IMG/VR virus record: IMGVR_UViG_3300028228_000044 | Span: 1 to 31,693 of that record | DNA length: 31,693 nucleotides | Source of the DNA: a virus | Direction: 5' to 3' (one strand) | Part shown: positions 16,859-29,421 of the stretch, piece after piece | Layout: the number at the start of each line of letters is the position of its first letter | Position numbering within the stretch: position 1 is the stretch's first letter | The notes under the pieces: generated by a model | Told to the model about the DNA's origin: nothing | The model's database searches: none | The model's input: only the letters and a program-made list of their open reading frames with translations | Position numbers and translations under genes: made by a program

Positions 16859-16991
16859 ACTTAAAGAAAAATTATCAGTGCTGGATGAGACTGTAATATT
16901 AGAGTTACTAGACTTAACTACTGTTGACATCTTGAACAGATTTGAAGATATTATTGAAGAAAATTACGACAAACTTATTGAGGAAATATAA
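16839..16991 (+). CDS. Small acidic protein, 50 aa
   Basis: The frame (MNLTLVELKEKLSVLDETVI, then LELLDLTTVDILNRFEDI) is acidic and fully helical. It starts at the second of two ATGs inside the end of the previous gene and stops on TAATG with ribonucleotide reductase. Similar small leucine-rich acidic proteins precede reductase genes in marine podoviruses. It may help the neighbouring enzymes, but no function is known. Confidence 0.65.
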   Translation: MNLTLVELKEKLSVLDETVILELLDLTTVDILNRFEDIIEENYDKLIEEI

Positions 16992-18880
16992 TGGATTTTT
17001 ACCAGGAATACATAGCTAAAAGCAGGTACTCACGATTCTTAGAAGAAGAAGGACGCAGAGAGAATTGGTTTGAAACAGTTGATAGATACATGGACTTCAT
17101 GAAGAACCATCTAGAGACTAAGATGAATTACACGATACCTATGCAGACAGACTCAGAGCTGCGTGAGGCTATTAAGAACTTAGAGATAGTACCTTCTATG
17201 CGCTCTATCATGACAGCTGGTAAAGCCCTTGAGAGGGACAACACAGCAGGTTACAACTGTGCCTACCTACCTGTTGATGATCCTAAGTGCTTTGATGAGG
17301 CGATGTACATACTACTGTGTGGCACTGGTGTTGGCTTCAGTGTTGAGAAGAAGTACGTTGACAAGCTACCTGAAGTACCTCATATGATGTTTGAGTCAGA
17401 CTCTACTGTTGTGGTATCAGACAGCAAGGAAGGATGGGCTAAGGCATTACGTCAAGTCATAGCCCTGTTGTACTCAGGTGAAGTACCTAAGTGGAACACA
17501 GATAAGGTTCGTCCTGCAGGTGCTAGGTTAAAGACATTCGGTGGTAGAGCTAGTGGTCCTGGTCCTTTACATGAGCTGTTTGAGTTTGTTGTGCGTAAGT
17601 TTAAGTGTGCCTCAGGACGTAAGCTGACCACACTAGAAGCACACGACATCATGTGCAAAGTAGCAGAGGTAGTGGTTGTAGGTGGTGTTAGACGTTCAGC
17701 AATGATCTCACTGTCTGACTTAGAAGATGACAAGATGCGTAACGCTAAGACAGGCCAGTGGTGGGAGGCTAATCCTCAACGTGCGTTAGCTAACAACTCT
17801 GCTGTGTATGCTCGTAGACCTGATGTTGGTCAATTCATGGACGAGTGGAACAGCCTGTATCACAGCCACTCAGGTGAACGTGGTATCTTCAATCGTGAAG
17901 CTGCTCAGTTTCAAGCAGGTAAGAATGGACGTAGAGATACTGACCAGGAGTTCGGCACTAACCCATGCTCTGAGATTATCCTTAGACCTTATCAGTTCTG
18001 TAACCTCTCTGAGGTTGTTGTTCGAGAGAGTGATTCGATCTATGATCTTGAGCGTAAGGTAAACCTGGCTACAATACTTGGAACCTATCAGTCCACAATG
18101 ACACACTTCCCTTACCTCAGAAAGATATGGAATCGCAACACTGAGGAAGAAAGATTGTTGGGTGTCTCATTGACTGGTATCCTTGATAACAAAATACTAG
18201 GAGATACAATTGTTCAAACTAAAACTCTTCTTGAAAAACTTAAGATGGAAGCTGCAGAGACAAACAAACTTCTCGCAAGCGATCTTGGCATTCCTATCTC
18301 TGTCGCTATTACTTGTGTTAAACCTAGTGGTACTGTGTCTCAGCTTGTTGATAGTGCCAGTGGCATTCATCCACGCCATAGTCGTTATTATATCAGACGT
18401 ATTCGTGGCGATAAGAAAGACCCTCTTTCCACCTTCATGATGGAGCAAGGCATACCCTTTGAGGATTGTGTCATGCGTCCTGAGTCTACTACTATCTTTA
18501 GCTTCCCTAAGAAAGCACCACACAATGCACTACTGCGTGAGGACTTGACTGCAGTCCAACATCTGGACTTATGGATGATGTATCAGCAACATTGGTGTGA
18601 ACACAAACCTTCAGTGACTATCTCAGTCAATGAGGACGAGTGGGTTGAGGTTGGTGCGTGGGTGTGGAAGAACTTCGATGATGTATCTGGTGTCAGCTTC
18701 TTACCCTACGATGGAGGTACTTATAAACAGGCTCCATACGAGGAATGCAGTGAGGAAGAGTATAAAGAATTGTTGCATAAGATGCCTCAAGAGATTGATT
18801 GGGACAGTCTCATCGAAGTGGATGATAATGTCGAAGGTGCTCAGCAGTTGGCTTGCTCTGCTGGAGTCTGTGAAATTTAA
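16991..18880 (+). CDS. nrdJ: Adenosylcobalamin-dependent (class II) ribonucleotide reductase, monomeric type
   Basis: The 629-residue enzyme reduces ribonucleoside triphosphates using vitamin B12. Active-site residues: thiyl-radical Cys C326 in NPCSEI with N324 and E328, the redox pair C90 (AGYNC) and C337 (FCNLSE), and the C-terminal shuttle pair C622/C627 in CSAGVC. It is shorter than the Lactobacillus enzyme (739). No intein or split is seen. It needs no iron centre or small subunit but needs host B12. It works with ThyX to supply dNTPs during rapid phage replication. Confidence 0.95.
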   Translation: MDFYQEYIAKSRYSRFLEEEGRRENWFETVDRYMDFMKNHLETKMNYTIPMQTDSELREAIKNLEIVPSMRSIMTAGKALERDNTAGYNCAYLPVDDPKCFDEAMYILLCGTGVGFSVEKKYVDKLPEVPHMMFESDSTVVVSDSKEGWAKALRQVIALLYSGEVPKWNTDKVRPAGARLKTFGGRASGPGPLHELFEFVVRKFKCASGRKLTTLEAHDIMCKVAEVVVVGGVRRSAMISLSDLEDDKMRNAKTGQWWEANPQRALANNSAVYARRPDVGQFMDEWNSLYHSHSGERGIFNREAAQFQAGKNGRRDTDQEFGTNPCSEIILRPYQFCNLSEVVVRESDSIYDLERKVNLATILGTYQSTMTHFPYLRKIWNRNTEEERLLGVSLTGILDNKILGDTIVQTKTLLEKLKMEAAETNKLLASDLGIPISVAITCVKPSGTVSQLVDSASGIHPRHSRYYIRRIRGDKKDPLSTFMMEQGIPFEDCVMRPESTTIFSFPKKAPHNALLREDLTAVQHLDLWMMYQQHWCEHKPSVTISVNEDEWVEVGAWVWKNFDDVSGVSFLPYDGGTYKQAPYEECSEEEYKELLHKMPQEIDWDSLIEVDDNVEGAQQLACSAGVCEI

Positions 18881-18882
18881 CG

Positions 18883-19158
18883 ATGCCTGATCCTATCTTA
18901 CTAGCGTCCTTGTTTGAGTTTCTAGCTCTAATCTCTTGCTACCCACAAGATGCTGAGTTCAAGCAAGGCGTTAGTAATTATTTCCAAGAAGGTACTATAA
19001 CACTAACACCTGTTGCAATGACTAAAGATTATGTTATAGTTCATGAGTTGTTTCATTATTGTCAGTGGGATAGGGATGGTAATGCAAAGAACTGGAGTGA
19101 GTGGCGGTTAAGAGAAAGAGATGCAAAAACAGTTGAGTACATTTATTTAAACAAATAG
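18883..19158 (+). CDS. Small HExxH (zincin-like) protein
   Basis: The 91-residue protein has an N-terminal hydrophobic stretch (ILLASLFEFLALISCY), a beta-like middle (GTITLTPVAM), then VIVHELFHYCQWDRD and an acidic/basic helix (SEWRLRERDAKTVEY). HELFH is a zinc-metalloprotease signature, and downstream Glu residues could supply the third ligand. It could be a minimal metallopeptidase. It follows the reductase by two bases. Its target is unknown. Confidence 0.65.
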   Translation: MPDPILLASLFEFLALISCYPQDAEFKQGVSNYFQEGTITLTPVAMTKDYVIVHELFHYCQWDRDGNAKNWSEWRLRERDAKTVEYIYLNK

Positions 19159-19167
19159 GAGAAACTT

Positions 19168-19266
19168 ATGGGACTAATAGAAATATTAGGACTACTATTC
19201 ATGACGTACATGACACTGGTTCTAGTAGCTGTAGTAATAGGAGTAATAATAGAGAAATGGAGATAG
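19168..19266 (+). CDS. Tiny membrane peptide, 32 aa, end of the rightward arm
   Basis: A 32-residue frame with one long hydrophobic helix (LIEILGLLFMTYMTLVLVAV, then VIGVIIEKWR). AGGAG precedes its ATG at 19168. It is the last rightward gene; the leftward gene at 19283-19441 ends just 16 nt away. It could be a small membrane or lysis-related peptide. No function recognised. Confidence 0.5.
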   Translation: MGLIEILGLLFMTYMTLVLVAVVIGVIIEKWR

Positions 19267-19282
19267 GCTTGGCAGAATATAT

Positions 19283-19441
19283 CTAATCTTTTCTATTATT
19301 AATTAGCTCAAATAGGGTGCGAACTTTATCTTCTAACACAGATATCCTCGCCCCTATTTCTGCTTTCCAAGTGATAGCCATGAACACTACCAGCAATAGT
19401 CCTGAGATAATCTCCCAGAAGTTGATGATGAAGTTCTCCAT
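19283..19441 (-). CDS. Holin-like membrane protein, 52 aa
   Basis: The 52-residue frame has one membrane segment (ISGLLLVVFMAITW, about 12-25) followed by a charged heptad-like region (ARISVLEDKVRTLFELI). Its ATG follows the stop of the lysozyme-bearing gene at once (TAG-ATG), and the GATGGAG context is weak. Location after a lysozyme gene and single-helix layout make a holin or anti-holin possible. It is the last gene of the leftward arm. Confidence 0.5.
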   Translation of the reverse strand: MENFIINFWEIISGLLLVVFMAITWKAEIGARISVLEDKVRTLFELINNRKD

Positions 19442-21274
19442 CTAGTTACTTTTTCTTCTCTGGCTATTTATGTACTCTCTCGGTGAGTAGTCATCCTTCT
19501 TAAATAAGTCACGATTTCTTTTGTTGTCACCTATGAACATAAATTTATCCTCCTCCCCAATACGTGGTGGATCATTTCGATGATACATAACTCTCTTACC
19601 AGACTCCATTGGATCAGAAGCACGAGGGTTAGGTTTAAATGTAAATCCTTTATCTGCTTTCTTTGCAGCTGCATCTATTCTATCTTGAATAGCTTTAGGT
19701 GGTTCCTTGCTACCAAACAAGTCATTCATCCACACCCTGACCCTGTCCATTACTCCTTTGTCTCCATCCTTGCCTACATTAGCTTGTAGTCTACCCATCA
19801 TCTCAACATACGAGTTGTTATTCCAGAGTTCCTCATAAGCTGCTTGCTTAAGAGAGCTGAGGTTGCCATCTTTAGGGTTAGCCATTCTTGCTTCAACATA
19901 GGTGGAATACTTTTCATTCCATCCGTCATTAATGTCTCCACGATAGTGAGCATCTATAAGTGCTTTCTGTTCTTTTAAATCTACATCCTTAAACACACGA
20001 ACCTTGTTTCTAACTTCCTTTATCTTAGCGTTCATGGCTTCAGGTGGTGTCATCTCAGCATATTTACCTGTCTGGCCTACACCTGCTGTAGCAACACCTA
20101 CTGTGTCCTTATACCATCCTGGTCTATAGCCTTCTTTCCTTACCAAGAACTTCTGAAGCTCATTCAGTTTGATTCCGTAGGCATCCTCTACTTCCTTAAT
20201 AGCATCTTCACCGTAGTGATGAGGTACGTTTTTATTAAAGGTAGTTGGTGGTGTGTTAGACCATATGTTACCAGTAACCTGTGCTTGACTCGTTTCGATT
20301 ACGTCTGCAGCACCTGCTTCAGTAATTAAAGATAACGAAGGTATTTCTTTATCTCTATAAGAATCAATCTCTCTTGCTAACTCACTTAAAGTAGCAGAGT
20401 CTGCGCCAAGTTCAGATAGTCTTTGATAGTCTTCTTCAAGCGTCTCGATTATCTCTGATGTAGTAGGAGCATCGCCTACCTTCACAATAGATGGCTTTAG
20501 TTCAATAGTGTTTACATTCTCTGTTTGGGTAGACATCTCGCCACCACCGTAGGCTAGCACAGCAGCTCTACGCTCTTCTTCTTGCATACGTCTTAGCTCA
20601 CTGACCTGTGTATCAGGAGTCATTAAACCTTGTCCGTTATAAGGCATATCCATGCTACCAGAGTCCATCACTGCTTTTCTCCTAACCGCTTCTTCTCTTT
20701 CTCTTTGGGCTATTGCAACACCTTCTTCATTCCTATTGTATTCGTTCTCTTGTCTTTCTACAGGGATGTTATTCTGTAATAATGCTTCTCGTCTCCTTCT
20801 GTCCTCAGCTATCTTAGCATCATACATAGCCTCCTCTGTAGAAGTGCCTAAGCCTCTGTCTTTAGGTCTTCTTAAATTCTCTTCTCTTCTTAAATTCTCT
20901 TCTACTTGTAATTGATTTAATCTCCAGTCAGAACGAGCTTCAGGGATTGCACCAGCGAGTACCTCATCCGGTGTCATTAGACCTGCTGGCTTTTTATAAT
21001 CAAACACTTCACCCTGACCATACCCTCCACCACTGGTAAATGATTGGTTATTAGGAGTGTTGTAATTATTACTATATCCTACAGAAGGGTCTGCACCACT
21101 ACCATAATAGTAAGCATACTCACTAGGAGTAGCTTGACCAGCTTGAGCTGCTCTGTTACTTGCTGTTTGATAATCAATCTTGGCTCTGTTCTCTGCTGCT
21201 GTTCCAGAACCTACACCAATACCTTTTAATCTATTAACAAGATTACCTAATAAGTCATCGAATGCGTTAGCCAT
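19442..21274 (-). CDS. Internal virion protein with T4-type lysozyme (GH24-like) domain
   Basis: The 610-residue protein has a long, low-complexity charged N-terminal part (about 1-350) with internal repeats: GLMTPD at 98 and 216, and EENLRR twice at 125-136. A C-terminal muramidase domain follows. The residues E381, D390 and T396 have the exact 9- and 6-residue spacing of the T4 lysozyme triad (E11, D20, T26), in KEGYRPGWYKDTVGVATAGVG. It probably opens the peptidoglycan during DNA entry. As no separate endolysin is visible, it might also serve in lysis. Confidence 0.8.
   Translation of the reverse strand: MANAFDDLLGNLVNRLKGIGVGSGTAAENRAKIDYQTASNRAAQAGQATPSEYAYYYGSGADPSVGYSNNYNTPNNQSFTSGGGYGQGEVFDYKKPAGLMTPDEVLAGAIPEARSDWRLNQLQVEENLRREENLRRPKDRGLGTSTEEAMYDAKIAEDRRRREALLQNNIPVERQENEYNRNEEGVAIAQREREEAVRRKAVMDSGSMDMPYNGQGLMTPDTQVSELRRMQEEERRAAVLAYGGGEMSTQTENVNTIELKPSIVKVGDAPTTSEIIETLEEDYQRLSELGADSATLSELAREIDSYRDKEIPSLSLITEAGAADVIETSQAQVTGNIWSNTPPTTFNKNVPHHYGEDAIKEVEDAYGIKLNELQKFLVRKEGYRPGWYKDTVGVATAGVGQTGKYAEMTPPEAMNAKIKEVRNKVRVFKDVDLKEQKALIDAHYRGDINDGWNEKYSTYVEARMANPKDGNLSSLKQAAYEELWNNNSYVEMMGRLQANVGKDGDKGVMDRVRVWMNDLFGSKEPPKAIQDRIDAAAKKADKGFTFKPNPRASDPMESGKRVMYHRNDPPRIGEEDKFMFIGDNKRNRDLFKKDDYSPREYINSQRRKSN
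20868..20903. repeat. Perfect 2 x 18-bp tandem repeat inside the lysozyme-bearing gene
   Basis: CTTCTTAAATTCTCTTCT is repeated without change. It codes, on the minus strand, for a duplicated EENLRR hexapeptide. Length 18 keeps the frame, so slippage could change the repeat number without breaking the protein. Confidence 0.9.
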
Positions 21275-22923
21275 TATTGTTCTTCCTCTGCCATTTCTGT
21301 TATTCTCTGAGCTGCTGTTATCTGACTAAAGGTTCCTGACGGAACTACCTGCGCTGCTTTTCTAGCGACACGGCTTGCCTGTCCTGCTAACTGTGCTGTC
21401 TCTCCAACAACTCTAGGAGAAGCTAATGCCAAAGCTGGTATAGCACCAGGAGTAAGCAACCCTCCAAGACCTCCAGTAGCTGCACCATAACCAACAGCAC
21501 CACCACCTAATATTCTTCCTAGCATTCCTTTAGGAGTTAGTGATGCCATGTCTTGACCTGCTATCTTGTTTATAAATTTATTACCACCGATGCTTTCTAG
21601 TTCTTCAGCAAGCGTAACTCTCCTACCATAGTTAGTCTGAACATTATCTCTCATGATAGACAGTAACTTTCTCAGTGCTGTGTCTGGGTTTGTTTTCCCT
21701 CCTGACTCAACACTAAGAGTCTTCTTCAGTTCCTTCATCTGCTCAGCAGCTTTGCCATAACTCTCCATGACTTTTGAGTAATCAGGTGCAACATCCTCAA
21801 TAGCTTTAACTACTGACTTCCTTACTTCTTCAGCAAACACCTTTCCACCGTTAGTGCTGGATGCGTCCCCTATTTCCTTAATTGCTTGTTTAAGCTGGTC
21901 CATCTGCATTACTGTGTTGTATCCCATTTCTTTAGATTGTTTTACTTTGTCTAACAAGGCGTTGATAGTGTCCATCGAACCATCTGATAATTTATTAGCC
22001 TCTCTTGTTATCTTAGATAAAACATAATCTATTCTGTTATACATCACCTTTGAGCCAGAAGCAGAAACCTCTTTCATTCCTGCATTGTAATCAGCGTTCT
22101 TCTTTTGTCTTAACTTCTCAAGGTTAGCAAGAGCATCATCAAGTATTAACTGTGGGTCTGCACCTTTCATGTTGTCTCTAAATTGTTTCAAGGCTGATCC
22201 GCCCTCTACTCCAGACTCATATGCCTTTTCAATAGATTTTCTACCTACTCCAGATGTGAAGGAAGCTACCGCAGGTGCTACTACTCCTACAGTCTTTGTT
22301 ACTGCCTTCCCAATAACAGGTGCAACAAGAGCTACAGGGTCTAACTTAGTTGCTACATTTGACACGCCTTTTGCTACATTGGCTGTTCTACTACCAGCAA
22401 CGGCAGTCTTAGCAACAGCACTCGCTCCTCCTGTAACAAGAACAGATACATCTGCCAGTACACTTGCTGGGTCTGTGGCTAACGCCTTTTTAAAACCATC
22501 AGCAGTACCATACTTCTCAGCCATTCCATCGACAACAGAATCAAACATCTGCTCAGAGTCCGGTCTACCATCCATATCAACACCGAGATTACGCAGACCT
22601 TTTCTAAGACCTCCACCTATAACCTGGCTCAATGATGTTACAGTATCTATTGGGCTGGTCACTGCTTGGAACAAGTCACCAATTAACCTTGCCGATGAGG
22701 GTACTAAGTTACGTCCTGCCTGAGACAAAACCTGGTCGGCTCTCATCTCACCGTAGTCAACTTCAGGTTCAGCCTGAGCTGTCTCATCTGGCTCTGGTTG
22801 TTGTCCTTGTTGTTCTTGATACAACCTAGCAGCAGCTTGTTTTATTTCTTCAGGTTTAGCATCCGCTGGTCCTTCAAATGTTATGACTTTCCCACTGCTG
22901 TGTCTTACTGAATATTTAGCCAT
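21274..22923 (-). CDS. Internal virion / DNA ejection protein (549 aa)
   Basis: The protein opens with YSVRHSSGKVITFEGPADAK, a start common to a family of internal proteins in marine podoviruses, then an acidic Gln-rich linker. Ala/Val/Gly-rich hydrophobic parts lie near residues 155-225 and near 460-510. The helical middle (about 240-420) is rich in Lys and Asp. This mix fits proteins ejected from the head that form a trans-envelope channel. It overlaps the next gene by one base. The assignment is by position and composition. Confidence 0.6.
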   Translation of the reverse strand: MAKYSVRHSSGKVITFEGPADAKPEEIKQAAARLYQEQQGQQPEPDETAQAEPEVDYGEMRADQVLSQAGRNLVPSSARLIGDLFQAVTSPIDTVTSLSQVIGGGLRKGLRNLGVDMDGRPDSEQMFDSVVDGMAEKYGTADGFKKALATDPASVLADVSVLVTGGASAVAKTAVAGSRTANVAKGVSNVATKLDPVALVAPVIGKAVTKTVGVVAPAVASFTSGVGRKSIEKAYESGVEGGSALKQFRDNMKGADPQLILDDALANLEKLRQKKNADYNAGMKEVSASGSKVMYNRIDYVLSKITREANKLSDGSMDTINALLDKVKQSKEMGYNTVMQMDQLKQAIKEIGDASSTNGGKVFAEEVRKSVVKAIEDVAPDYSKVMESYGKAAEQMKELKKTLSVESGGKTNPDTALRKLLSIMRDNVQTNYGRRVTLAEELESIGGNKFINKIAGQDMASLTPKGMLGRILGGGAVGYGAATGGLGGLLTPGAIPALALASPRVVGETAQLAGQASRVARKAAQVVPSGTFSQITAAQRITEMAEEEQ

Positions 22924-22937
22924 TTGTTGTTTCCCTG

Positions 22938-23927
22938 TTATTCGATGCTAATGATTTCAAACTCTTCAGCACTAGTAGACTCACCTTCAAAACTACTACC
23001 TACTAAATACTCGTCAAACCCTACGGTATTCCATCCTTGCTTTTTATAATTAGCTGTGGATTTTTGGTATGCTTTTCTAGCAGCTTCCGCTTGTCTTTTT
23101 AGATTTCTTTTAATAGTTTCTCCATCCATGCCAGGAGTAACCATAGCTTTTAAGAATTCCTCTTTTTCTGTCTGAGTCAATGCAGACCCAAATAATTTAT
23201 TTCTTACCGCATTAACTTGCTTTTGGTATCTCATCCACCAATCACCAAGTCTTTTTTGCTCTTCAGTTGTGGGAAACTTTTTAGCTGCCATTACAGCCCA
23301 GTCACCAACAACATCAAAAGCATAACCACCAAAATTCTCTTCAAAAGTAGTAAACAAGTCTGTAGTTTCGTTTGCTTGGTTTCCTTTTTCTTCTAAATCT
23401 TCAAATATAGGTTTAGTAAGTTTATCTCCTTTACCTTCCTTTTCTGCGTCTTTTCTTATCTTATCTATATCTGCTTGCGTCTTCTCCATGCCAAGCACTT
23501 CTTTACTTCTATCAAACTTAGCCTGTTCAGCTGCCTGCTCAGCTTTCATTCTAGTTGCAACAGTAGCTTTAGCTTGATCCATCAACTGCATAGCCTCTCT
23601 AGGGTAGCCTGATTGTCCCAACTCTTGAGACATCTTAGCCAGTACATCAGGGTTACTCATGTCTTGACCTTGATACGTTTTAAGTATCTGCTTCATTACA
23701 GAGGCTCTTTCCATCTCAGGAGAAGGTGACTCACCAAACAATCTAAGACCTCTAAGTTTCTCACCTGTCTCAAGACCAGCCCTAGCCACTCCTGCGTACA
23801 TACCTAGCTCTGAACCATAGTTAGGTAGCTTGGCTAAGTATTCTTGTCTTGCCCTGTTCTCTCGTTCCTGTCCTCTTTGATACTCTAGCTCTTCAGGAGT
23901 AGGACCAAATATATCTGCAATTGCCAT
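22938..23927 (-). CDS. Virion-associated protein, likely internal (329 aa)
   Basis: The N-terminus (MAIADIFGPTPEELEYQRGQ) and long charged helices (about 130-180, rich in Lys, Glu, Gln) resemble proteins that lie between tail and ejection proteins in marine podoviruses. The C-terminal part (GSALTQTEKEEFLKAMVTPG) is also helical. No enzyme motif is seen. It probably belongs to the internal core or tail. Confidence 0.55.
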   Translation of the reverse strand: MAIADIFGPTPEELEYQRGQERENRARQEYLAKLPNYGSELGMYAGVARAGLETGEKLRGLRLFGESPSPEMERASVMKQILKTYQGQDMSNPDVLAKMSQELGQSGYPREAMQLMDQAKATVATRMKAEQAAEQAKFDRSKEVLGMEKTQADIDKIRKDAEKEGKGDKLTKPIFEDLEEKGNQANETTDLFTTFEENFGGYAFDVVGDWAVMAAKKFPTTEEQKRLGDWWMRYQKQVNAVRNKLFGSALTQTEKEEFLKAMVTPGMDGETIKRNLKRQAEAARKAYQKSTANYKKQGWNTVGFDEYLVGSSFEGESTSAEEFEIISIE

Positions 23928-23940
23928 AATTAATTATCCT

Positions 23941-25053
23941 TTAGTATGCTTTCTGTCCAAATTGAAACTTAGAAGGGTCTGACATACCCATTCCCATGTT
24001 TGAAGTCATAGGTGCTGGACCACCACCGAACCCACTAAAAAGACCACCTATCTTACCAATGCCTTTTTGAACAAGACCACCTACATCACCCATTAATTCT
24101 TTATTGTTAAGCAAACCAGTAGTGGCGTCATACTTGTTCTGTGCTTGTCCCATACTAACTTTAGCTTGGTTTAACGCTGAGTCCTGTAACGCATTAGCAC
24201 CATACTGTTGTCCTGTCATGGCGGTAGCACCTGCGTCAAGGCCCATCTGGAATGGTTGTTTAGCTAAGTCTTCTAGTCCTGATTGCTGATTCAAGTAGTT
24301 CTGATACGGTGACAAAGCTCCTGTCATCGTGTTATAACCAGTACCCATCAACCCAGCAGCCTTACTTAGTTGTGATGTACCAAAGTTTATCTGTTGTTGT
24401 GCAGCGTCTTCAGCTCCTGCTGCTAACTGCAAGCCACGCCTGTTTCTACTTTCTTGTAGAGCCTTCAGCATTGGGTTACCACCAGCACCAACACTCAAAC
24501 CAGTGGTTCCTCTACCAAAGCCCATAGCAAGTAATCTCTGCTCTTCCTCAATATCATAAGGACGTAATGCAGCCATCTGTTGTTGCATATAATTCTGTCT
24601 TGCTTGTTCTGGAGTATCAGCTAAATAATCCTGACCCAGGTTAAACAGACCTTGTGCAGGTGCGCTATACTGTTGAGCAAAAGGAACAGCTTGTTCAGCA
24701 GTGGTTAAACCTGTCTGCATCAAGTTACCAAATCTAGCTTGGTCTGCTTGAACAGCATCAGAGGCAGTGTACCCAGCAGACTTTAATTGCCCTGTGGTAG
24801 GATCAACCTCAAAGTTAGACTGTCCGTAGAGTGTCTTAACATCAACAGGTCTGAAGAATCCTTGCTGACCAGCCTGAGCCATACGAGCAGCGTACTGTTG
24901 GGCTGTTTCCCCGGCTTGTTGAGCAAGTTGCTTGCTTGCCCCATACTGACCTATAGCACTACCTGCCATCGACAGCATCTGGTTTCCTGTTGCCATCCCT
25001 GCTACCTGCATAGCTGGTCCTGCTACTTTTGCTATCTTAGAAAACAATCCCAT
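23941..25053 (-). CDS. Internal virion / ejection protein (370 aa)
   Basis: The protein is rich in Gly, Ala and Gln. The opening (MGLFSKIAKVAGPAMQVAG) and repeated AQQ-type motifs are typical of internal proteins of T7-like marine phages (gp14-like). A Gly-rich, possibly membrane-active end follows (IGKIGGLFSGFGGGPAPMTS). Likely part of the DNA-ejection apparatus. It lies 13 nt before the 329-residue gene. Confidence 0.6.
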   Translation of the reverse strand: MGLFSKIAKVAGPAMQVAGMATGNQMLSMAGSAIGQYGASKQLAQQAGETAQQYAARMAQAGQQGFFRPVDVKTLYGQSNFEVDPTTGQLKSAGYTASDAVQADQARFGNLMQTGLTTAEQAVPFAQQYSAPAQGLFNLGQDYLADTPEQARQNYMQQQMAALRPYDIEEEQRLLAMGFGRGTTGLSVGAGGNPMLKALQESRNRRGLQLAAGAEDAAQQQINFGTSQLSKAAGLMGTGYNTMTGALSPYQNYLNQQSGLEDLAKQPFQMGLDAGATAMTGQQYGANALQDSALNQAKVSMGQAQNKYDATTGLLNNKELMGDVGGLVQKGIGKIGGLFSGFGGGPAPMTSNMGMGMSDPSKFQFGQKAY

Positions 25054-25742: not shown

Positions 25743-27605
25743 TTAAATTGTTTTACCTGCTTTAACATAAATATCTATCTTTTGTATCGACAGTGGTGCA
25801 GCGTTTATGTCTGCTTCAAAGCCTAATTGAATAATAGAACCTGATCCACCTAAGTTTGATTGAACTTCTTCTAACACTAAACCACTAGAGTATTCAGATA
25901 AAGCGTCTGCACTTCTTAAATAAATGGTAGCGTCAGCTGGATTAGCATTATCAGGAATGTAATAAAAACCATTAGCATCTAATCTAACAGCTTCAGACAA
26001 ATCATAACCACCTGTAACGTCTTCTACAGATTTAAAAGGAACCTGATAGTGTGTTGTTCCATCAGGTGCTGTAAGTGTATTAGTCGTAGGTGTGCTGTTA
26101 CTGAATGATTGACTGCCTACTACTGCTGAACCACTGACACCATACTTGTTTGTATTAAACTCAGAAATAACAATTGAGCCTGTTCTTAGTTTTTTAGTTA
26201 TTGAACGATACGATTGGACATAATCAAAGCCATACTTTAAAGCTACGTCCTGACCTACCCCACCTACAACTACAAAGTTAGCTTTCTTTAGAAACTTTAA
26301 TGAAGTAGGCGCACCTAAGTCAAAGAAGTTTGTGTAGTACCTGAGTCTGTATGTAGCTGCGTTGTCTGTAAATCCAAAGTACTTACCTATGTAACCTTCT
26401 TTACCTACAAACAAATCACCTGTGTAGGTAACGTGTAATGCTGCAGGTTCAATACCATCCCAGATGGTTACCCGTGCTGCTCCATTCTCTAGTCTGCCTC
26501 TTAGATCAAAACAATATACATATTTAGAAGTAGGTAAAGTTAACAGATAGAAAGCATCTTTAGGATAGTAGGTAGCTTTAATCTTTTCTCTGTTGGTTTC
26601 TGACTCTACAAAAGCTACTAGCTCATCCCTAACATTAAACGATACATCATTGATAGGTGCTGACTTTTCTTGGATAACTCGTGACAGACTTCTTACACCA
26701 GACTCAGACAAGAACATAACGTCTGTACCTGTGTTGACAATACTGTCTCTAGCAATACAACCGATGTTAGCAACTAAATCAGACAATACCAGTGTAGTTA
26801 CATCAATAGGATTAGCGTAGATAGCAATGTTTCTTTTACCAAATATAATTAAGAAACCGTTGTGCGGTGCAATACCTACTATCTCATCTCCGTTAGGAAA
26901 GACATCAACCAATGACAAGTAACCTGAGTCACCTGTTGCTAAGTTAGTACCATCGAGTAAAGCACTGAAATATAGTGTTTGTTTATCGTTAGCAATGTCA
27001 GCCCACCATGTTCTACCGTAAGCACCTATAACTATGTTAGGCTTAAAATCAGCAGGAGAAGCGTAAGTGGTAGGTACTGTGCCAGCGTCACTGAGTAAAT
27101 TGAAACCATAAGCACCTGTATGTGCATGATCTGCTCCAAGCTGATGATAGACTAAAGGGAGGTGTCCAGCTTGTGCTAAGTAAGCATGAGGTTTAGCAGT
27201 TGGTCCTTCACCAAATACAATACTAGCACCCATCCATTCGTTAGCTGTAATAGTGTAAGCAGTTGTACCTGTGCCTGCTGCGTCAGCTACTGTACCGTCA
27301 ACAGCAGTAACTAAGGTAGCAGAACCACCTGCTCGTGTGAATAATTTATTGTTACCACCTGCGAATGTAACATCAGGGTTAGGAAGGTTGTACAAGAACT
27401 CTACTTTGTTAGAAGCTAAGTCAGTATTTAAAGCACTGTTTACTTTAGTCCATCCACGCCTGGCTCCAATCCTACCAAACTTATCAATCACACAGTTGTA
27501 GGCTTCTAGTGCGTAGCCAGATGAAAGATCAACGCTGCTCTCTTGGGTGTTAACGCCAAGAAAGCCTGGTGCTGATATCGAAGAAGACTGTAGTTGACCT
27601 GACAT
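25743..27605 (-). CDS. Tail tubular protein B-like (nozzle, 620 aa)
   Basis: The start region (GFLGVNTQESSVDLSSGYAL, then a FGRIGARRGWTKVN segment) is the hallmark N-terminus of podovirus tail-tube or stabilisation proteins (T7 gp12 position). The long, beta-rich middle has many Asp/Gly/Thr turns and SESGVRSLSRVIQE near 300. It should form the distal nozzle of the tail. It shares one base with the tail tubular A gene, which precedes it as in T7. Confidence 0.82.
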   Translation of the reverse strand: MSGQLQSSSISAPGFLGVNTQESSVDLSSGYALEAYNCVIDKFGRIGARRGWTKVNSALNTDLASNKVEFLYNLPNPDVTFAGGNNKLFTRAGGSATLVTAVDGTVADAAGTGTTAYTITANEWMGASIVFGEGPTAKPHAYLAQAGHLPLVYHQLGADHAHTGAYGFNLLSDAGTVPTTYASPADFKPNIVIGAYGRTWWADIANDKQTLYFSALLDGTNLATGDSGYLSLVDVFPNGDEIVGIAPHNGFLIIFGKRNIAIYANPIDVTTLVLSDLVANIGCIARDSIVNTGTDVMFLSESGVRSLSRVIQEKSAPINDVSFNVRDELVAFVESETNREKIKATYYPKDAFYLLTLPTSKYVYCFDLRGRLENGAARVTIWDGIEPAALHVTYTGDLFVGKEGYIGKYFGFTDNAATYRLRYYTNFFDLGAPTSLKFLKKANFVVVGGVGQDVALKYGFDYVQSYRSITKKLRTGSIVISEFNTNKYGVSGSAVVGSQSFSNSTPTTNTLTAPDGTTHYQVPFKSVEDVTGGYDLSEAVRLDANGFYYIPDNANPADATIYLRSADALSEYSSGLVLEEVQSNLGGSGSIIQLGFEADINAAPLSIQKIDIYVKAGKTI

Positions 27606-28500: not shown

Positions 28501-28857
28501 TTAGTTATGGAATTGTGTTGTGATTGAAGGTGCTAAATTCATGCTGACCATGTAAGTTATGGTGCTGCTTGTGCCACTATTCTTTACTCTGAGTATGTCG
28601 TTTTCTTTTAAATCTATCTGTAAGTTATTTAGCAATAAATACTCACCGTTAGTAGACTGTAATGTTTTAGCGTGAGCTAGGGGGTACTCTGTTGTTGTAG
28701 CACTGTCGTACCAATACAAGTCAGCATCTTCGTTACCAGCACTGGCTAAGATATAAATCATGTGTATCTCAGCAGTATTCTTTGCTGGTACAGTATACAT
28801 ATCAACCTTTGCGCTATCGTTTGTTCTTGTTTTTACGGCTGTTACGTTTCTTGCCAT
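28501..28857 (-). CDS. Hypothetical structural-type protein, 118 aa
   Basis: A 118-residue protein of predicted beta structure (VDMYTVPAKNTAEIHMIYIL, then NNLQIDLKENDILRVKNSGT). Such jelly-roll-like patterns are common in small head or tail decoration proteins. Its start lies within the end of the spanin-like gene (44-nt overlap). No family recognised. Confidence 0.55.
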   Translation of the reverse strand: MARNVTAVKTRTNDSAKVDMYTVPAKNTAEIHMIYILASAGNEDADLYWYDSATTTEYPLAHAKTLQSTNGEYLLLNNLQIDLKENDILRVKNSGTSSTITYMVSMNLAPSITTQFHN

Positions 28858-29230
28858 GAATTAATCTCTCTATTGAGTTGACAAAGCCTGCCCATATCTC
28901 TTGTGGGCTGGGCAGTAACCACCCTAGAACCAATAACAATAAATACCACATGGGTACGTTAGTGTTATTCTGCACTAGACTGTCTACCTTTGATGTATTA
29001 ATGCTGGTGTCAGTTTCCTTCTGACTTACATTAACATTCTCACCTTCGATCTTGGTGTTCTGCTGATTAGCAACTACTTGTTGTGTGTTCTCTTTTCCTA
29101 CTTGAGCATTAGCATTAACATTAGTACCTGAGTTACCTGGTAGAACTGCCTTTACAAGACCTAAAGCACTACAACCTTGAAGAAGCATTATACCACAGAC
29201 TGATAGTAATGTCAAGGACTTTATGCTCAT
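28814..29230 (-). CDS. Spanin-like lipoprotein with C-terminal membrane segment (138 aa)
   Basis: The N-terminus is a lipoprotein signal with lipobox LQGC (Cys20). A Gln/Asn-rich, low-hydrophobic region (about 30-90: NANAQVGKENTQQVVANQQN) follows. A membrane segment lies near 93-108 (VPMWYLLLLVLGWLLP) with a basic tail. A lipid-anchored N-terminus plus inner-membrane C-terminus is the layout of unimolecular spanins, which fuse the membranes at the end of lysis. The gene overlaps the holin candidate upstream by four bases. Confidence 0.7.
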   Translation of the reverse strand: MSIKSLTLLSVCGIMLLQGCSALGLVKAVLPGNSGTNVNANAQVGKENTQQVVANQQNTKIEGENVNVSQKETDTSINTSKVDSLVQNNTNVPMWYLLLLVLGWLLPSPQEIWAGFVNSIERLIHGKKRNSRKNKNKR

Positions 29231-29421
29231 CTCTTAATGATAAGATCAACAAGCCATCCGAAGGAAGCACCCAGTATCAGCAGTAATACACCTGCACCCT
29301 TCCACTTAGACATCAGACTAGACAGACATCTAACGTCTATGCTTAACTGCTCCATCTGACGCTGTAGGGATTCTACCTGAGCTTCGAGTCTACCTAACTG
29401 CTTGTCGTTGTTGTTGTCCAT
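29227..29421 (-). CDS. Holin-like protein with coiled coil and one membrane segment (64 aa)
   Basis: An N-terminal coiled coil (about 6-38: LGRLEAQVESLQRQMEQLSI) is followed by a membrane helix (WKGAGVLLLILGASFGWLVD, about 40-58) and a basic end. It is directly followed by the spanin-like gene. This layout and place suggest a holin or pinholin. The second candidate lies at 19283-19441. Confidence 0.65.
   Translation of the reverse strand: MDNNNDKQLGRLEAQVESLQRQMEQLSIDVRCLSSLMSKWKGAGVLLLILGASFGWLVDLIIKR

Follow-up and report, generated by a model that had tools for sequence, protein, structure and literature searches.

At one gene position close to the ribonucleotide reductase gene, called the slot here, an uncultured podovirus-like phage and its clade carry a swappable cartridge of wall hydrolases, which occur either fused to a long N-terminal region or as free proteins. 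The slot protein of the phage itself, a product of 610 residues, is probably (we estimate a probability of roughly 0.7) a lysis enzyme fused to a tether and the sole recognisable wall hydrolase of the phage. The catalytic domain, the synteny of the slot, the exchange of domains and the occurrence of both fused and free states were observed directly. It is this exchangeable slot with its two states, rather than the catalytic triad, which gives the system its interest, and it is kin to the modular endolysins.

Slot gene and its neighbourhood

The whole stretch of DNA analysed (the window) comprises the 31,693 bases of one IMG/VR virus record, which is classed as linear. The features discussed below are as follows.

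16991..18880, plus strand: ribonucleotide reductase (named by eye), the convergent landmark of the slot
19283..19441, minus strand: 52-residue holin candidate with one hydrophobic segment (hydropathy 2.24), adjoining 21 of 25 distinct slot alleles
19442..21274, minus strand: slot gene, 610-residue protein with a long N-terminal region and a lysozyme-type domain (open reading frame, family matches, slot synteny)
19610..20272, minus strand: catalytic domain, residues 335-555, with E381, D390 and T396 (AlphaFold2 model, T4 lysozyme fold matches, homologs in alignments A1 and A4)
20087..20089, minus strand: codon of T396
20105..20107, minus strand: codon of D390
20132..20134, minus strand: codon of E381
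20270..21274, minus strand: N-terminal region, residues 1-335, predicted to be mostly disordered, with a helical pair at residues 272-310 (model, composition)
21095..21274, minus strand: conserved N-terminal leader, residues 1-60 (alignment A2, nine rows, 30-78% identity to the window)
21274..22923, minus strand: 549-residue gene upstream of the slot gene (homolog in record G002 at 49%)
22938..23927, minus strand: 329-residue presumed internal virion gene (from position and conservation only)
23941..25053, minus strand: 370-residue presumed internal virion gene (likewise from position and conservation only)
28814..29230, minus strand: spanin-like gene of lipoprotein type, matching phrog_1804 (Rz-like spanin, E=1.1e-7), whose product has a hydrophobic segment at its N-terminus
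29227..29421, minus strand: 64-residue second holin candidate, coiled-coil-like followed by one hydrophobic segment (phrog_11131, unknown function, E=0.0013)

The ATG of the slot gene overlaps the stop codon of the 549-residue gene (TAATG) and the ATG of the 52-residue gene abuts the stop codon of the slot gene, so that the three genes are probably co-translated. A block covering positions 19266-22771 is 99.6% identical to two other loci (L005 and L006), while the neighbouring blocks are 93-98% identical and positions 22771-23412 are unaligned, which suggests recombination around the slot.

Between the reductase and the slot, positions 18883-19158 (plus strand) encode a protein of 91 residues carrying the motif HELFHYCQW and a downstream glutamate, possibly a small zinc peptidase as judged from these residues. 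Pfam gave no confident match for it; homologs were found in L099 (39%), L126, L130, L131 and L136.

Catalytic domain

The original prediction placed a glutamate, an aspartate and a threonine, spaced as in T4 lysozyme, in the open reading frame at 19442-21274, and this was borne out. E381, D390 and T396 stand at spacings of 9 and 6, the same as those of E11, D20 and T26 in T4 lysozyme. The bare spacing was present in 17% of 5000 shuffles of the slot protein, as well as in two of the 42 listed window proteins, and taken alone it is therefore weak evidence and not proof. The fuller pattern E[GS]-x7-D-x5-T-x-G-x-G appeared in none of the 5000 shuffles.

Based on comparison to PHROGs the slot protein matches phrog_7 (endolysin) with E=5.3e-5, and in Pfam it matches Phage_lysozyme (PF00959, GH24) with E=0.0029 and 18.4 bits, below the curated cut-off of 22.3. 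Its other weak Pfam matches (PP-binding, Ntox34, Sey1_3HB and others) were all below cut-off and were disregarded. In the two domain alignments the glutamate and the threonine are invariant (5/5 rows of A1 and 6/6 rows of A4), as is a YRGD motif of the subgroup. The window keeps D390, and an aligned aspartate is present in 3/5 rows of A1 and 3/6 rows of A4; the catalytic aspartate is thus not conserved in the subgroup.

Residues 335-555 were modelled with AlphaFold2 from six aligned rows, giving a pLDDT of 87.1 and a pTM of 0.83. Among the 50 PDB matches listed for this model nearly all were T4 lysozyme chains or fusions, with Z scores of 6.2-6.9 over 117-130 residues and an rmsd of 3.4-4.8, where a Z below 8 can mean a common arrangement. 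The best Foldseek match in the PDB had E=7.6e-3, and the best among predicted viral structures was a segment of 1122 residues from a Vibrio phage protein (3.2e-8), followed by the endolysin of phage R8W (9.9e-8). The match to phrog_7, the sub-threshold Pfam match and the predicted model together point to lysozyme-type homology, and with moderate scores against T4 lysozyme the domain would be a divergent T4-type lysozyme.

Of 50,697 phage records searched for the slot protein two matched, both from the same Vibrio phage, and 21 pattern-matching stretches in cellular genomes included none encoding a relative of the domain, in a search with a single protein query that reaches close relatives only.

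N-terminal region

Residues 1-335 of the slot protein are predicted to be disordered, the ten-row model having a pLDDT of 51.8 and a pTM of 0.19. The long region had been described as repetitive, a term that does not suit it: it is rich in glutamate and arginine, is poorly predicted, and contains one 18-nt tandem duplication. No Pfam or PHROG family matched residues 1-350 at E<0.1 (the nearest was PP-binding with E=0.11), and on the evidence of the pTM and these two scans no recognisable structural or ejection domain is fused to the lysozyme domain. The suggested fusion in the position of an ejection protein stands in part, in that a lysozyme-type domain does end a long protein adjoining internal-virion genes; the identification of the long part as a repetitive ejection protein is not supported. 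Calling the product a virion protein reflects only the position of its gene, and it is at most a putative one.

A check for an internal start before residue 350, by which a separate lysozyme could be freed, had also been proposed. No start with a Shine-Dalgarno-like motif lies within the 110 codons preceding the domain in the window, and farther upstream GTG202 and ATG203 follow an AGGAG. One candidate each was found in three of 11 fused genes (L219, L153 and L099); an internal start there is consequently not a shared feature, and release of a lysozyme in this way was rejected.

Fused and free lysins in the window's clade

Loci corresponding to the slot were collected by way of the reductase. 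Among the best 80 of 95 reductase loci, the reductase C-terminus was present in 37 of L120-L158, and addition of L098, L099 and L102 gave 40 loci. A lysin open reading frame was obtained from 36 of them (all except L123, L131, L140 and L154). With the window and ten loci from a search with the leader (29 loci) the set comprised 47 loci, 43 of them complete and four partial (L124, L127, L132 and L136). The same record is represented twice by L098/L141 and by L102/L152, and L159-L199, which have different gene neighbourhoods or are incomplete, were left out of the count. A lysin of more than 400 residues was scored as fused, and alleles were considered distinct at a threshold of 95% identity.

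The 43 complete loci yielded 25 distinct lysins, 12 of them fused and 13 separate, which fell into nine BLAST classes: A (the window type), B (Phage_lysozyme), C (weakly SLT-like), D (phrog_5867 endolysin), E (L128, with no family match), G (phrog_90 endolysin), H (GH108), I (phrog_873 endolysin) and J (PF07486 hydrolase). A further class outside the nine, F (Amidase_2), was represented by the partial locus L136. There is a weak resemblance between classes C and E (3e-4), and the independent families may therefore be fewer.

The leader of the window type begins eight of the 12 fused alleles, the other four (L130, L099, L134 and L153) having different N-termini. Ten of the 13 separate lysins are preceded by a leader-type gene of their own, and the remaining three (L141, L146 and L128) by a gene of 705-706 residues. 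LysM was recognised by pattern in 6/13 separate and 0/12 fused alleles, and was confirmed by Pfam in L098, L125, L148 and L225. A YDAFGN-like linker precedes the catalytic part in nine of 13 proteins tested, the window protein being one without it.

At eight split loci among those shown, the leader gene is closed by an in-frame TAA that precedes the ATG of the lysin by three bases, and this ATG stands behind a GAGG-type site. Stop-codon readthrough was considered for these alleles and rejected, as the arrangement has the appearance of normal reinitiation or of a newly gained start.

Exchange of catalytic domains

The exchange is seen on comparing the window to L122. The DNA of the two is 96.8% identical through the reductase (98.7% for the protein) and 96.0% at the 52-residue gene, but their slot proteins have only residues 1-86/89 in common (57%) and carry different catalytic domains beyond that point. 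For the window and L145 the slot proteins match along residues 1-329 (43%) and diverge beyond them.

On a tree built from 31 reductase rows, of which 24 differ, the class of the lysin changes 14 times, the minimum being six, and the fused or free state changes seven times. Shuffled labels gave a mean of 17.5 class changes and as few as 14 in 3/200 shuffles. Class is thus more clustered than expected by chance, and exchange has been frequent but not free.

Slot in more distant relatives

The relatives' records searched numbered 22, of which 11 were read for the slot (G004-G008, G010, G011, G015, G016 and G019 being left out). A free lysin of 144-201 residues, scoring above the Pfam cut-offs, was present in all eight of the more distant records examined, whose portal proteins are 52-57% identical to that of the window. 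These lysins belong to the M15 peptidase (G012, G013 and G017), GH19 (G020), GH108 (G022) and Phage_lysozyme (G014, G018 and G021) families. They are located downstream of the internal-virion genes with zero to four small genes between, and in five of the eight (G012, G013, G014, G017 and G018) the lysin and reductase genes are convergent, an arrangement shared with the window. In G013 a recognised holin (PF11351; phrog_3427) is encoded beside the lysin.

Search for another wall hydrolase

It had been claimed that the phage has no separate endolysin, and the claim holds for the 39 of 42 listed window genes scanned against PHROGs (the primase, DNA polymerase and ribonucleotide reductase genes were left out). 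Matches labelled as lysis functions were restricted to the slot protein, the spanin-like gene and a tail protein encoded at 25743-27605 (minus strand). The last matches phrog_5107 "amidase" with E=4.6e-27 and also a head-closure family; it had no match in Pfam, and was rejected as an amidase since the label looks wrong.

The part of the genome missing from the window was read in two relatives, one of which (L010) is 99.5% identical and extends 1.05 kb beyond the left end of the window, the other (L011, portal 90%) bridging window position 1 to position 29400. Fibre-like (tail-fibre) and small genes were seen there, and no lysin.

Two relatives, G023 and G024, are classed as linear though each has an exact repeat at its ends, of 2190 bases in G023 and 221 bases in G024. 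In the Pfam scan of 27 proteins of G023 the wall-hydrolase matches were to SLT and SLT_3 only, both on the slot protein and both below cut-off; among the best 25 of 62 PHROG families of this record one was lysis-labelled (phrog_5107 "amidase", for which the member protein is not named). The genes of G024 were read by eye, its slot lysin having been scanned as L148. Record G023 also encodes (L201:4619-5053) a protein of 144 residues with the sequence HDFGHLMGIIH, which resembles the metal-binding motif HxxxHxxGxxH.

Holin and spanin candidates

Two holin-like genes and a spanin-like gene had been reported in the window. All three exist, and each of the two small proteins has one hydrophobic segment; neither the 52- nor the 64-residue protein matches a holin family in PHROGs or in a follow-up family scan, and the former is without any family match. 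The 52-residue gene is absent beside four of the 25 distinct alleles (L099, L126, L225 and L232, of which the L225 locus ends soon past the lysin), and it is therefore not a fixed partner of the lysin. One other holin-like candidate, proposed from its sequence, is a protein of 91 residues with an N-terminal hydrophobic segment (L011:12107-12382). It is conserved in G009, G023 and G025, is not among the listed open reading frames of the window, and gave no family match.

Role of the slot protein

Judged from the evidence on the slot, the protein most likely acts in terminal lysis. Its exchangeable catalytic domain, in this phage a divergent T4-type lysozyme, would be attached to a small leader and a long flexible stretch. 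As infection ends, one or both of the small hydrophobic proteins would open a hole in the membrane, giving the slot protein access to the wall; there it would cut the glycan strands with E381 as the general acid, after which the spanin-like protein would disrupt the outer membrane. Enzymatic activity, use at lysis and the holin roles are what we infer here. Counting against this reading are the sub-threshold Pfam score, the unconserved aspartate, the lack of the 52-residue gene beside four of the 25 alleles, the occurrence of this domain type in virion RNA polymerases of Vibrio phages, the clustering of lysin class on the reductase tree, and the weak or missing family assignment of classes C and E.

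A second role at entry is possible. In its full form, which we put forward tentatively and rate below an even chance, the slot would encode a dual-use exchangeable lysin, in which a virion-targeting leader and a disordered tether carry whichever hydrolase has been acquired, one and the same molecule being packaged to serve at entry and set free to serve at lysis; the fused form and the pair of leader gene and free lysin would interconvert as a stop codon and a ribosome-binding site are gained or lost at a fixed linker. Use of the protein in the virion only, where it would be packaged with the internal proteins and drill the wall at entry while something unrecognised brought about lysis, is unlikely. 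It would account for the slot gene following the presumed internal-virion genes with a stop-start overlap, for the long N-terminal region fused in 12/25 alleles, and for the same domain type beginning the virion RNA polymerases of Vibrio phages; against it stand the free endolysins occupying the same slot in 8/8 more distant records, the free forms with Pfam-confirmed LysM, and the failure to find another lysin in 39/42 window genes or 27 proteins of G023.

There is also the earlier suggestion that a small open reading frame is the endolysin, in which case the slot protein would be secondary. Several open reading frames of the window have no family match and the tail protein at 25743-27605 matches a PHROG labelled amidase, but the unmatched frames mostly encode fewer than 130 residues, the tail protein has the head-closure match and no Pfam support, and the slot is syntenic with canonical endolysins, being filled by free endolysins in all eight distant relatives and by free or fused hydrolases in the window's own clade; the suggestion thus seems quite unlikely. 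A binding role for the domain, as a lysozyme fold that has degenerated and lost its activity, is very improbable: the low Pfam score and the variable aspartate would fit, but the glutamate and threonine are invariant in every aligned row of A1 and A4, the window copy retains all three residues, and the alternative alleles of the slot are hydrolases of other families.

If the slot protein is indeed the only wall hydrolase, then close relatives differ by whole catalytic families at one gene and would form a natural series for asking which features of an enzyme lysis needs. Whether one enzyme can serve both entry and exit could be tested directly with fused and free alleles that share near-identical backgrounds.

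Comparison with known systems

A literature search found no published work on this phage group. The window domain resembles the T4-type lysozymes (PF00959, GH24) in its E-D-T arrangement and, at moderate scores, in its lysozyme-like predicted fold, and differs from them in scoring below the Pfam cut-off, in the invariant YRGD and unconserved aspartate of its subgroup, and in its long N-terminal fusion. The putative endolysin g43 of Alteromonas phage vB_AmeP_R8W, the Foldseek match given above, has a TM score of 0.77 by target length; it is described as a free endolysin encoded next to a class II holin, the annotation being a prediction (PMC8228385). In contrast to the slot protein it has 160 residues, is free, and is without the long N-terminal region.

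The N-termini of the virion RNA polymerases of Vibrio Schitoviridae (1.097.O, pVa5 and 1.026.O) are similar to the window domain, with 40% identity to 1.097.O over window residues 354-448 and 29-33% between the L155 domain and the Vibrio polymerase N-termini. In those phages the domain forms the beginning of a very large virion polymerase, whereas it ends a polymerase-free protein of 610 residues here; its presence at the head of virion polymerases favours use in the virion. A precedent for the double use of a single enzyme is P15 of PRD1, described in one account as a muramidase that is virion-associated and is used in lysis (PMC6356626), with the difference that PRD1 is an unrelated, membrane-containing phage and that the likeness is one of description. 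With the modular endolysins the slot shares the exchange of catalytic domains, and it differs from them in that exchange here also toggles between a fused and a separate gene, with a long partner predicted to be disordered.
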